Assembly: GCA_902514105.1 (NCBI GenBank)
Contig: CABXPU010000007.1
Span: 1 to 45,826 of the forward strand
Length of the DNA stretch: 45,826 bases
Reading direction: 5' to 3'
Source: an uncultured SAR86 cluster bacterium
GTDB lineage: Bacteria > Pseudomonadota > Gammaproteobacteria > Magnimaribacterales > D2472
Position 1 is the stretch's first letter. Every line of letters begins with the position of its first letter. Below the pieces are notes generated by a model, which made no database searches, had not been told where the DNA came from, and saw only the letters and a list, made by a program, of their open reading frames with translations. The translations under genes were made by a program, and so were the position numbers. Below, in pieces: positions 5,153 to 13,460 of this stretch.

Positions 5153-7306
5153 TTATAAATTACCAGCTACAGAAGACTTCTCAAAGCTTAATTTCTCTTT
5201 TCTATCTTCTTTTGCAGGAGCATCACCAAACTTACCATCCTCTTCAGCAAGCTTTTTAATAAGGTTTGCTGGCTTAAAGGTATCGTTTTTAGTTAATTCA
5301 TGGTATTTATTAAGCTTATTAAGGACTTCTTTCATGCCCATTGCATTAGCATGATGCATAGGACCGCCTCTCCATATAGGGAATCCATATCCATTAATAT
5401 AAACTACATCTAGATCAACAGCCCTTTGACCAACACCTTCTTCTATTATGTCAGCACCCTCATTTACAAGAGCAAGAATACACCTATCTATAATCTCTTC
5501 ATCTGATATTTCTCTTCTTTCAATCCCATTCTCAGCAGAAACAGCTTTATAAATGTCTTCATTCTCTGGAGCTGGGTTTGGAGCTCTAGATCCTTCGGTA
5601 TAGTTATAAAAGCCTTTACCATTCTTTTGACCAAACCTATCTTGCTCACATAACTGGTCACTTATTTTAGAAGGAAGGGCAGACTCAGTGCCGCTTAGTT
5701 TTCTAGCACGCCAACCTAGGTCTAATCCAACTAGATCTAACATCCTAAAAGGCCCCATATTCATTCCAAATTTTTCAAGAGCTTGATCAACTTGATGAGG
5801 AAGAGCACCCTCTAATAGCAACATATTTGCCTGGGCAGTGTATCCAAATAACATTCTATTTCCTATGAATCCAGGAGCATTAAGAGAAACTACAGCAGCC
5901 TTTTTAAGCTTCTTGCCCACTGACATTACTGTTGCTAATGTTTCATCAGAAGATTGTGACCCTCTGACAACCTCTAAGAGCCTCATTATATTGGCTGGGC
6001 TAAAAAAGTGAGTACCCACTACCTTATCAGGCCTATTGGTTACTGATGCAATAGAATCTACATTTAGTCCAGAGGTATTACTTGCAAGGATTGCATCTTT
6101 ATTAACAACCTCATCTAGTGTTTTAAAGATCTTTTCTTTCAGCTCAAGGTTTTCATAAACAGCTTCAATAACAATATCGCAATCTGAGACATCTTGATAA
6201 TCGAGACTTGAAGTAATTAGGCCGAATACCCCATCTTTCATTTCTTGATTCATCCTTCCTCTATCAACCATAAATTGATAATTTTTTTCTATTACTGACA
6301 TGCCCCTTTTCAGGTTGTCTTCGTCTTGATCAATTATGTGAACAGGGATGCCTGCATTAGCAAAACACATTGCTATTCCACCACCCATTGTTCCCGACCC
6401 AATAATGCCAGCTTTTTTAATATCTTTTACAGGAGTTTCTTTAGGAACGTCTGCTATTTTAGATGCAGCTCTTTCACCAAAGAAGATATGTATCATTGCC
6501 TCTCTTTGCGGATTTACAAGGCATTCAATAAAGCAATCACTTTCAGTCTTCATGCCATCATCAAAATCATCAAGGTTTATTGCAGCTTCAACACATTGGA
6601 TTATCTTTCCAGGTGCAAATTGACCCTTTCTTGTTTTTGCTGCCATTGCTCTAGCTTCAATTAAAACATTGTCTGAACCTCTAGCTTCCACTACTTTTTC
6701 ACTTAAATCCCTTACTTTAGGATGATTTTCTGTATTAGCAGCTTTTTCTTGAATAAATTTAATGGAATCATTAACTAAATCATCAGAAACTTCATCAATA
6801 ATGCCCATAGATAAAGCTTTTTTCGCTGAAACGTGCATCCCAGTTAACATAATTTTTAAAGCTTCAGCAGGGCCCACAAGCCTTGGAAGTCTTTGAGTAC
6901 CGCCTGCACCAGGTAAAAGGCCTAAATTAACCTCTGGGAGGCCCACAAAGGCCGCAGGACCAGCAATTCTATAATTACAACATAATGCGGTTTCTAAGCC
7001 CCCGCCTAGTGCAGAGCCATTTATAGCTGCAACTACAGGTTTTGAGCAAAATTCTAGCTTTTTAAAGGCCTCATCAAGCCCTGGGCCATCAGGCTTAGTG
7101 CCAAATTCAGAAATATCTGCACCAGCAATAAAAGATCTTCCTGCTCCAGTAAGTACAAGACCTATAACATCTGGATCATTCTCAGCCTTAGTTATATTCT
7201 CGACAAATCCGGCTCTAACACCAGCACTTAGTGGGTTTACAGGCGGATTATCAACAGTTAATAATGCTACGCCATCTTTTACTTCGTAATGTACAGTTCC
7301 TTTCAA
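5153..7306 (-). CDS. Bifunctional enoyl-CoA hydratase / 3-hydroxyacyl-CoA dehydrogenase
   Basis: This is a FadB/EHHADH-type fusion that hydrates trans-2-enoyl-CoA and oxidises the resulting 3-hydroxyacyl-CoA in fatty-acid beta-oxidation. The N-terminal crotonase domain (about residues 5-190) shows GAGRSFIAGADISEF and GSALGGGLE with PEVNLGLLPGAGG. The dehydrogenase part has the NAD-binding GSGTMGGGIA (about 304-313), the HFFSPANIMRLLEV motif with the catalytic His, and the GFIGNR segment; a second C-terminal dehydrogenase repeat follows. I place the start at the TTG at 7306 because GGAG lies 6 bases before it; a TTG at 7318 would add four residues. No thiolase gene (fadA) is adjacent. The arrangement is like the peroxisomal-type bifunctional enzyme rather than classical FadB. 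Confidence 0.93.
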   Translation of the reverse strand: MKGTVHYEVKDGVALLTVDNPPVNPLSAGVRAGFVENITKAENDPDVIGLVLTGAGRSFIAGADISEFGTKPDGPGLDEAFKKLEFCSKPVVAAINGSALGGGLETALCCNYRIAGPAAFVGLPEVNLGLLPGAGGTQRLPRLVGPAEALKIMLTGMHVSAKKALSMGIIDEVSDDLVNDSIKFIQEKAANTENHPKVRDLSEKVVEARGSDNVLIEARAMAAKTRKGQFAPGKIIQCVEAAINLDDFDDGMKTESDCFIECLVNPQREAMIHIFFGERAASKIADVPKETPVKDIKKAGIIGSGTMGGGIAMCFANAGIPVHIIDQDEDNLKRGMSVIEKNYQFMVDRGRMNQEMKDGVFGLITSSLDYQDVSDCDIVIEAVYENLELKEKIFKTLDEVVNKDAILASNTSGLNVDSIASVTNRPDKVVGTHFFSPANIMRLLEVVRGSQSSDETLATVMSVGKKLKKAAVVSLNAPGFIGNRMLFGYTAQANMLLLEGALPHQVDQALEKFGMNMGPFRMLDLVGLDLGWRARKLSGTESALPSKISDQLCEQDRFGQKNGKGFYNYTEGSRAPNPAPENEDIYKAVSAENGIERREISDEEIIDRCILALVNEGADIIEEGVGQRAVDLDVVYINGYGFPIWRGGPMHHANAMGMKEVLNKLNKYHELTKNDTFKPANLIKKLAEEDGKFGDAPAKEDRKEKLSFEKSSVAGNL

Positions 7307-7335
7307 TTTATTCTCCAAAAAAAATCAAGAAAAGC

Positions 7336-7374: not shown

Positions 7375-7402
7375 TTGATATTTAATTATAAATATATATA
7401 AT
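7375..7402 (+). promoter_or_regulatory. Strong sigma70-type promoter of the candidate small RNA
   Basis: TTGATA at 7375-7380 and TATAAT at 7397-7402 are separated by 16 bases. They predict a transcript start at about 7408-7410, exactly where an 8-base-pair inverted repeat begins. This is the best consensus promoter I can see in the window. Confidence 0.6.
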
Positions 7403-7407
7403 AATAC

Positions 7408-7487
7408 CTGTCAGCACTTCTCTTCCCCCAATCTAGAATGCTGACATCCTCTGGAATTATGTGGAGAGCCTAGCTCTCCACGCTTTT
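7408..7487 (+). ncRNA. Candidate small RNA with a C-rich loop and own terminator
   Basis: Immediately after a consensus promoter lies a perfect inverted repeat, TGTCAGCA (7409-7416) and TGCTGACA (7439-7446). The stem can be extended by TTCT/AGAA across a one-base bulge, leaving a loop that exposes CUUCCCCC. A 14-base linker is followed by a second perfect stem, GTGGAGAGC / GCTCTCCAC, and GCTTTT. The predicted RNA is about 80 nucleotides. I do not recognise it as a known family; it does not resemble 4.5S, 6S or tmRNA. A C-rich exposed loop is a known way for small RNAs to bind Shine-Dalgarno regions. Alternatively it is a regulatory leader of the downstream small ORF and peroxidase gene. Confidence 0.5.
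7461..7487 (+). terminator. Rho-independent terminator-like hairpin
   Basis: A perfect 9-base-pair stem (7461-7469 with 7473-7481) with a 3-base CTA loop is followed by GCTTTT. The T run is short (four), so termination may be partial, which would allow read-through into the small ORF and the peroxidase gene. The opposite strand has no T run after the stem, so it works only in the plus direction. Confidence 0.6.
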
Positions 7488-7502: not shown

Positions 7503-7589
7503 ATGAATAAATATATTGAAAATTTAGAAATTTTGGTCTTAATTCTGCTCTTTATGAGCACTTTATACGCCATTACACCAATACTGTAG
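7503..7589 (+). CDS. Possible 28-residue single-helix membrane peptide
   Basis: An ATG at 7503, preceded by TTAGG at a suitable distance, opens a 28-codon frame ending in TAG at 7587-7589. The peptide begins MNKYIENLE and then has an unbroken hydrophobic stretch (ILVLILLFMSTLYAI), the layout of known small single-span membrane proteins. It sits between the terminator-like hairpin and the peroxidase gene, whose ATG follows 13 bases later, so the two could be co-translated. No family is recognised. At this length and AT content chance occurrence is possible. Confidence 0.35.
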   Translation: MNKYIENLEILVLILLFMSTLYAITPIL

Positions 7590-7602
7590 TATCATTTTGC
7601 TG

Positions 7603-8127
7603 ATGAAACAGCTAATTTTGCTATTTGCAGCGACTCTATCTACTTATTCATACTCTTGTTCAGATCTACTTAATTCTGAGTTAAGAGTCTTAGACTCATC
7701 TGAAAAAAGAAATATGTGTGAATATAAAGGCGATGTACTCCTTGTTGTTAATGTAGCAAGCAGGTGTGGCTATACATATCAGTATGAAGGCCTTCAAGCT
7801 TTATATGATAAATATAAAGATCAAGGCTTAACAATTATTGGGATTCCTTCAAGAGATTTCAGACAAGAGTACAGTGAAGAGTCTTCCGTTGCTGAATTTT
7901 GCTCCACTGAGTACGGCGTCAACTTCCCGATGTTTGCTACAACAAAAGTAAGGGGGGATAAAGCACATCCATTTTACAAAAAATTATCTGCTCAATCTGG
8001 AATGACTCCAAATTGGAATTTTAATAAATATCTTATTGATAGAAATGGAGAAGTGTATAAAGGGTATAGAGCCAAAGTTAAACCAGACTCAGACTTGCTC
8101 ATAAATTCTATAGAAAAATTACTTTAA
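7603..8127 (+). CDS. Glutathione peroxidase family protein, exported
   Basis: A 174-residue thiol peroxidase of the GPx family (thioredoxin fold), which reduces hydrogen peroxide or lipid peroxides with glutathione or thioredoxin. The active-site motif NVASRCGYT has cysteine in place of selenocysteine; the conserved FPMF and WNFNKYLID segments, the latter carrying the catalytic Trp-Asn pair, are present. I chose ATG 7603 over the TTG two codons upstream. The first about 18 residues form a Sec-type signal (ILLFAATLSTYSYS), so the enzyme is probably periplasmic; SYSC is not a good lipobox. It overlaps the converging rpiA gene by 4 bases. Confidence 0.93.
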   Translation: MKQLILLFAATLSTYSYSCSDLLNSELRVLDSSEKRNMCEYKGDVLLVVNVASRCGYTYQYEGLQALYDKYKDQGLTIIGIPSRDFRQEYSEESSVAEFCSTEYGVNFPMFATTKVRGDKAHPFYKKLSAQSGMTPNWNFNKYLIDRNGEVYKGYRAKVKPDSDLLINSIEKLL

Positions 8128-13279: not shown

Positions 13280-13460
13280 AACCCACAAACCAATTCACCG
13301 CTATGTGCTATACCTGAACCGAAAGGACAGGTGGTGAACTTCTTATCGAATCAGGCTTCCCTTTATTAAGGTATCGCACAACAACGACATTGGATAATCA
13401 CCTTATAAATTAATATCGGTTCAAAATTTATTAACACATTAGCCAATGAACCAGAATGTA
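13280..13460 (-). ncRNA. ssrS: 6S RNA
   Basis: 6S RNA binds sigma70-RNA polymerase by mimicking an open promoter. The evidence is position plus structure. It lies between zapA and the 5-FTHF cyclo-ligase in the same direction, exactly as in E. coli. On the minus strand it contains GAACCGATATT, close to the E. coli 6S segment GAGCCGATATT. Its ends can pair: ACATTCTGG with TTGGTTTGT and TTCATTGGCTAATGTG with GCACATAGCGGTGAA, giving a long interrupted stem around a less paired centre. Length about 180 nucleotides fits the family. The exact ends are estimates from the pairing and the -10 box. Confidence 0.85.

Follow-up and report, generated by a model that had tools for sequence, protein, structure and literature searches.

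Does the DNA between the fadB-like gene and the glutathione peroxidase gene (gpx) of this SAR86 contig encode a small RNA that acts elsewhere in the cell, or is it the leader of whatever lies downstream? The element occupies a small part of the window (the whole 45,826-nt stretch of DNA analysed here), which belongs to a 956-kb assembly that is 68% complete. The features that matter for the argument are as follows.

7375–7402, forward strand: promoter, with −35 TTGATA (7375–7380), a 16-nt spacer and −10 TATAAT (7397–7402), read directly
7409–7446, forward strand: 5' hairpin, UGUCAGCA (7409–7416) paired with UGCUGACA (7439–7446), a perfect 8 bp
7420–7429, forward strand: C-rich loop and putative seed, CUCUUCCCCC in the window and CUCUCCCCCUAU in most relatives
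7461–7487, forward strand: terminator-like hairpin with a short U-tract, GUGGAGAGC (7461–7469) paired with GCUCUCCAC (7473–7481), a perfect 9 bp
7503–7589, forward strand: small ORF of 28 residues, MNKYIENLEILVLILLFMSTLYAITPIL, conserved and hydrophobic
7597–8127, forward strand: glutathione peroxidase, the downstream neighbour (ORF call; Pfam GSHPx, E 5e-28)
5153–7318, reverse strand: fadB-like enoyl-CoA hydratase / 3-hydroxyacyl-CoA dehydrogenase, the divergent neighbour (ORF call; Pfam ECH_1 and 3HCDH)

Fold and conservation of the RNA element

Direct reading of the letters places the promoter, the 8-bp hairpin, the C-rich loop and the terminator-like hairpin where an earlier note on this DNA had located them, with CUUCCCCC at 7422–7429 inside the loop of the 5' hairpin, and GCUUUU following the terminator-like stem and ending at 7487. 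An 80-nt RNA from this region folds at −29.3 kcal/mol, compared with −14.84 ± 2.63 for 200 shuffles (z −5.5), none of which folds as well (0/200), and the C-run of the loop is unpaired in the predicted folds. At the same time, the promoter match alone is within chance (3 sites in 501 bp, 2.7 expected), and a strict consensus terminator scan called no terminator in the window copy, due to the weak U-tract of that copy; the copies of relatives have better U-tracts. It is conservation, beyond the promoter match or the terminator scan, that raises the feature above chance.

The region is matched in all five genomes of the genus (5/5, the four others at 80–84% identity), and its 126-bp core is matched by BLAST in 79 of 107 family genomes, some of which align over the promoter part only, that is, over the pseudoazurin promoter described below. 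A covariance model trained on 20 sequences matches 96 of the 107 family genomes, 18 of the 19 good ones and 10 of the 10 genera. When the search was extended to the order with a stricter cut-off, 95 of 203 genomes matched, every one of them in the window's family, and none of the 96 genomes of the order outside that family did. An exact-motif search of the named GTDB collection returned 56 stretches, from SAR86 or from unplaced gammaproteobacterial or proteobacterial bins.

The earlier note had named compensatory changes as the check on the two stems, and we find such changes in both, with the stems kept across the family, including all five genomes of the genus. When 66 distinct sequences were aligned with MAFFT, independently of structure, 93.2% of cells were paired and both sides had changed in 12 of the 17 pairs; none of 500 shuffles of this alignment attains any of the measures, and slid controls pair at 37–52%. 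Compensatory changes occur in 6/8 pairs of the 5' hairpin (93.5% of cells paired) and in 6/9 pairs of the terminator-like stem (92.9%), and an alignment fitted to the model shows changes in 16/16 pairs overall and in 8/8 of the 5' hairpin. For example, stem 1 occurs as GTCAGCA/TGCTGAC, ATCAACA/TGTTGAT, ACCAACA/TGTTGGT, AACAGCA/TGCTGTT and CTAGCA/TGCTAG, and across these variants the loop CUCUCCCC(C)UAU is nearly invariant, its C-run being four long in genus g8 and five long elsewhere.

No Rfam 15 family reaches its gathering score at this RNA, the best of three sub-threshold hits being to a microRNA model (E 0.15), and the statement that it resembles no known class holds against that database. 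The titles and abstract starts of the open-licence literature, both on SAR86 small RNA and on marine metatranscriptome psRNA, contained no description of it; an earlier detection of the transcript in a subscription paper is possible. The sole Rfam match in the window is a 6S RNA at 13283–13460 on the reverse strand (56 bits, gathering 46.4).

Two kinds of locus and a small reading frame

The RNA is found in two settings. Of the 37 copies examined, all of them divergent or additional ones, 21 sit between fadB and gpx-rpiA, 15 beside an exonuclease I gene and one in neither place. The exonuclease I-locus copies keep promoter, hairpin, loop and terminator, and the RNA converges on the exonuclease I gene; on their fetched stretches there is a pseudoazurin gene in 11 of 15, the small ORF in 0 of 15 and gpx in 0 of 15.

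These copies bear on the alternative that the element is a leader in cis, in which the second hairpin attenuates the transcript of the 28-residue peptide (perhaps also of gpx) and the RNA serves chiefly as a regulatory 5' region. The peptide ORF is present in 30/30 loci, and in 22/22 fadB-locus copies with the window included, and it follows so closely behind the terminator in the 30 loci that there is little room for a promoter of its own. It is under purifying selection (median dN/dS 0.35 over 191 pairs, 98% of which have a value under 1), and the U-tract of the window copy is weak, as would suit an attenuator. On the other hand, 15 of 15 exonuclease I-locus copies have the hairpin, loop and terminator without the peptide ORF, the loop is conserved more than attenuation requires, and a conserved antiterminator pairing is not established. 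We consider such a leader unlikely. The version put forward in the earlier note, a leader attenuating the oxidative-stress gene, fares worse as a main reading and was rejected, since the first ORF past the terminator is the peptide and not glutathione peroxidase, and the regulated gene that should always lie downstream, gpx, is missing from the 15 exonuclease I-locus copies. A by-eye idea that the loop kisses the GGAGGG arm of the terminator, as in antitermination, was also dropped; the compensatory changes are consistent with the terminator stem as it stands.

The compensatory changes and the second copies lacking the small ORF argue instead for the first proposal of the earlier note, an independent small RNA that has a promoter and a terminator of its own. 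A conserved structured RNA with a predicted promoter and terminator of its own, and with no fixed downstream gene, is what a trans-acting sRNA would look like. At the fadB-gpx locus, read-through of the terminator would lead into the 28-residue ORF. Across relatives the predicted peptide is 24–33 residues long, includes a hydrophobic segment and in most cases ends in A-[IV]-x-P; it is probably a single-span membrane peptide, the span being judged by eye; a Pfam search with the 28-residue ORF gave no match.

G-runs upstream of TonB-dependent receptor genes

That the loop might pair with ribosome-binding sites had only been suggested in the earlier note, and it now has statistical support at the mRNAs of TonB-dependent receptors. 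We first searched seven family genomes for GGGGAG-N2-12-ATG and viewed 90 fetched loci; TonB-dependent receptors were among the few matches placed at real starts. A uniform start rule (the first ATG of the open frame, with GGGG sought at most 25 nt upstream) was applied to 50 of 98 Plug matches, from six genomes other than the window's own assembly, and to 229 non-receptor genes, one per similarity cluster, which are mostly neighbours of the RNA and not a random genome sample. GGGG lies upstream of 26/50 receptor genes versus 6/229 other genes (p 2e-17; 18/871 over all non-receptor genes), the receptor counts per genome being 4/6 in G003, 5/7 in G010, 3/9 in G048, 6/9 in G052, 5/12 in G060 and 3/7 in G104. 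It is absent upstream of the other 24 of the 50, and, considering that the receptor idea came from loci-search hits of which two are within the 50, the count without those two is 24/48. In three genomes of sister families without a covariance-model match (400 kb in all, with one sub-threshold hit, E 0.55), GGGG was found in 0/6 receptor-like genes, these being the only six that BLAST identified (26/50 vs 0/6, p 0.025), and in 6/333 other genes.

In the 26 receptors with a G-run, the run ends 2–9 nt upstream of the start codon and is preceded by A in 22, followed by A in 24 and flanked by A on both sides in 20, which fits the complement of a UCCCC(C)U loop. The mean duplex energy with the loop is −9.87 for receptors versus −3.84 for others, a difference attained by one of 300 composition-matched shuffled loops, and a Watson-Crick match to the loop of at least 7 occurs in 11/50 receptors versus 2/229 others. 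Statistically, an unpaired C-rich motif thus appears complementary to the translation-initiation region of a candidate target class.

Part of this signal reflects generally stronger ribosome-binding sites at receptor genes, as C/U-rich shuffled loops give 4.09 of the 6.03 energy difference, or two thirds, and receptors bind a generic anti-Shine-Dalgarno tail better than other genes do, by 3.73 kcal/mol. The RNA could accordingly be a general decoy or broad blocker of Shine-Dalgarno sequences, with receptors standing out only through their stronger sites, a reading that we regard as somewhat unlikely. GGGGAG-N2-12-ATG exceeds its reversed control in 7/7 genomes, and its matches extend beyond receptors, for example to genes that, recognised by eye, we take to be ftsZ and riboflavin synthase. 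A broad blocker, on the other hand, does not explain why receptors are enriched for GGGG and not significantly for GGAG (10/50 vs 27/229 others, p 0.16), AGGAG or GGAGG in the same comparison of 50 with 229 genes.

Longer complementarity gave no comparable picture. Antisense targets sought with a 12-mer loop complement in 107 genomes were rejected: at the 20 inspected loci the near-perfect complements fall within reading frames or on the other strand, and no site at a start codon recurs. In the genus, 10-mer complements were not consistently commoner than the reversed control (G000 16 vs 17, G001 20 vs 11, G004 19 vs 24). The window itself contains no receptor similar to the 55 query receptors. 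Receptor G-runs of at least five occur in 1/12 cases in g8 (one run of eight) and in 7/38 elsewhere, as judged by eye, which is too few for a correlation with C-run length.

Several minor observations concern start sites. Upstream regions of genes near the RNA (L207–L262 and the window; first-ATG rule) contain AGGAG in 0/298 and GGAG in 7/298, and ordinary Shine-Dalgarno sequences look rare there. GGGG also lies upstream of seven members (L091, L095, L099, L107, L227, L253, L255) of a cluster of 22 neighbouring genes whose product is probably secreted, a possible further target. A receptor type with the N-terminus MFNLxNTKEQLNK... has GGGG in G052 (L414) and lacks it at the first ATG in G060 (L407); in G060, translation may really begin at a later ATG.

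Our preferred reading, to which we assign a probability of roughly 0.6, is that the element encodes a trans-acting sRNA of about 78 nt, belonging to one SAR86 family, whose C-rich loop would block translation of TonB-dependent receptor mRNAs without Hfq. RNA polymerase would start near 7407–7410 from a sigma-70-type promoter, and transcription would mostly end at the second hairpin. With the loop kept single-stranded by the first hairpin, pairing with a non-canonical AGGGG(G)A, 2–9 nt upstream of the start codons of many receptor genes, would block ribosome entry, and less outer-membrane receptor would be made while the promoter is on. SAR86 ranks with the commonest heterotrophs of the surface ocean, and much of its carbon probably enters through TonB-dependent receptors. 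If the reading is correct, the RNA would give a clade with few cultured members an Hfq-free, post-transcriptional control of its chief uptake system, and its target code could be tested directly.

Repression without Hfq would fit the hosts: Hfq profile PF17209 matched 0/21 relatives, 15 of them good genomes, while it matched 5/14 control genomes, E. coli included, and the Hfq that an Hfq-dependent sRNA would need was not found among the 21 relatives. Enterobacterial OmrA/OmrB, RybB and MicA, which repress outer-membrane protein mRNAs, are Hfq-dependent and have seeds unlike that of the SAR86 RNA.

Closer parallels are likenesses in mode of action, and we claim no kinship with SisA, LhrC or IsrR. 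SisA-D of Caulobacter crescentus (the alphaR8 sRNA family) are sibling copies with a C/U-rich core, 5'-UUUCCUCCCU-3'; they were recovered with Hfq and are partners of the sponge CrfA, and SisA lowers mRNAs including those of TonB-dependent receptors (PMC12559287). The SAR86 RNA shares the several copies, the C/U-rich core and the candidate receptor mRNAs, and Caulobacter is also an oligotrophic aquatic bacterium; the SisA-D core, however, lies in a single-stranded stretch and not in a hairpin loop, and the recovery with Hfq contrasts with SAR86 relatives in which Hfq was not found, and with an RNA that matches no Rfam family. Multicopy LhrC1-5 of Listeria monocytogenes pair UCCC motifs with a G-rich stretch that precedes the start codon and do not need Hfq (PMC4132741), a resemblance in copy number, motif and apparent Hfq independence, but they belong to a Firmicute, have three redundant motifs and have been studied on the target lapB. 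Staphylococcal IsrR and Bacillus subtilis FsrA place C-rich single-stranded regions on Shine-Dalgarno regions in AT-rich genomes, with no RyhB-like use of Hfq (PMC9410917); they differ in being Fur-regulated, in targeting iron enzymes, in structure and in phylum. A small protein gene shares a transcription unit with RNAs in the alphaproteobacterial Cuckoo/CcsR RNAs with CcaF1 (the CIN1 locus; PMC10253847), where a gene for an RNA-binding DUF1127 protein of 71 residues lies ahead of four RNAs, unlike the SAR86 arrangement of one RNA preceding a 28-residue hydrophobic peptide, whose ORF gave no DUF1127 or other Pfam match.

A promoter shared with electron-transfer genes

The promoter spacer holds a near-dyad, TTGATAWT-NN-AWTATAA, and its conservation makes it a probable regulator site. 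Allowing up to one mismatch, TTGATAWWNNAWTATAANTNNNNATAAT occurs in 101/107 family genomes, compared with two hits for its reversed control in the same 107. The 28-bp promoter is also found 5' of pseudoazurin in several genera and of etfBA in one genus: 41 other promoter-like sites that we inspected comprise 24 at pseudoazurin or its operon, eight at etfB, one at a Rieske gene, five at the start of sdhA, which may be coding chance, and three without a clear gene. Pseudoazurin (TIGR02375) and Rieske (TIGR01416) identities are above cut-off, and etfB matches electron-transfer-flavoprotein models below the cut-offs of those models. Several pseudoazurin genes begin a few nt past the −10 box, and their messages may therefore be leaderless. 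By-eye comparison with consensus sequences of FNR, HexR, ArcA and Fur as binders of the dyad yielded none that was convincing.

The shared promoter could also point to an iron-starvation sRNA like RyhB, FsrA or IsrR, with Fur acting at the dyad and copper-bearing pseudoazurin standing in for an iron protein. Fur profile PF01475 is matched in 20/21 relatives, the promoter is held in common with a copper protein, and iron-responsive C-rich sRNAs are known (PMC9410917). We nevertheless find this reading very improbable: the dyad has a 2-nt centre and, judged by eye, does not look like a Fur box, the sharing with etfBA and with one genome's Rieske gene suits energy metabolism better than a saving of iron, the probable targets are receptors for uptake and not iron enzymes, and no Fur was found in the window's own assembly (G000, 68% complete).

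Returning to the trans-acting sRNA, a tentative extension, to which we give less than even odds, is that in a family of Hfq-less SAR86 the RNA co-evolved with a private ribosome-binding-site code, AGGGG(G)A, present on many TonB-dependent receptor mRNAs. A single promoter, common to the RNA, pseudoazurin and etfBA, would adjust outer-membrane uptake to respiratory electron flow, and the read-through peptide would play its part in that response at the membrane. Receptor synthesis would then be linked to the promoter of electron-transfer genes.

The promoter-sharing loci form a small regulon (L161–L169, L171, L173, L174, L178, L109, L187–L200, L202, L206). A Pfam search with a 60-residue ORF of the pseudoazurin operon gave no match; in two genera, two such small hydrophobic ORFs, of about 60 and 50–57 residues, precede pseudoazurin (L187–L189, L198–L200, and L093 at 2405–2587 and 2257–2430 on the reverse strand).
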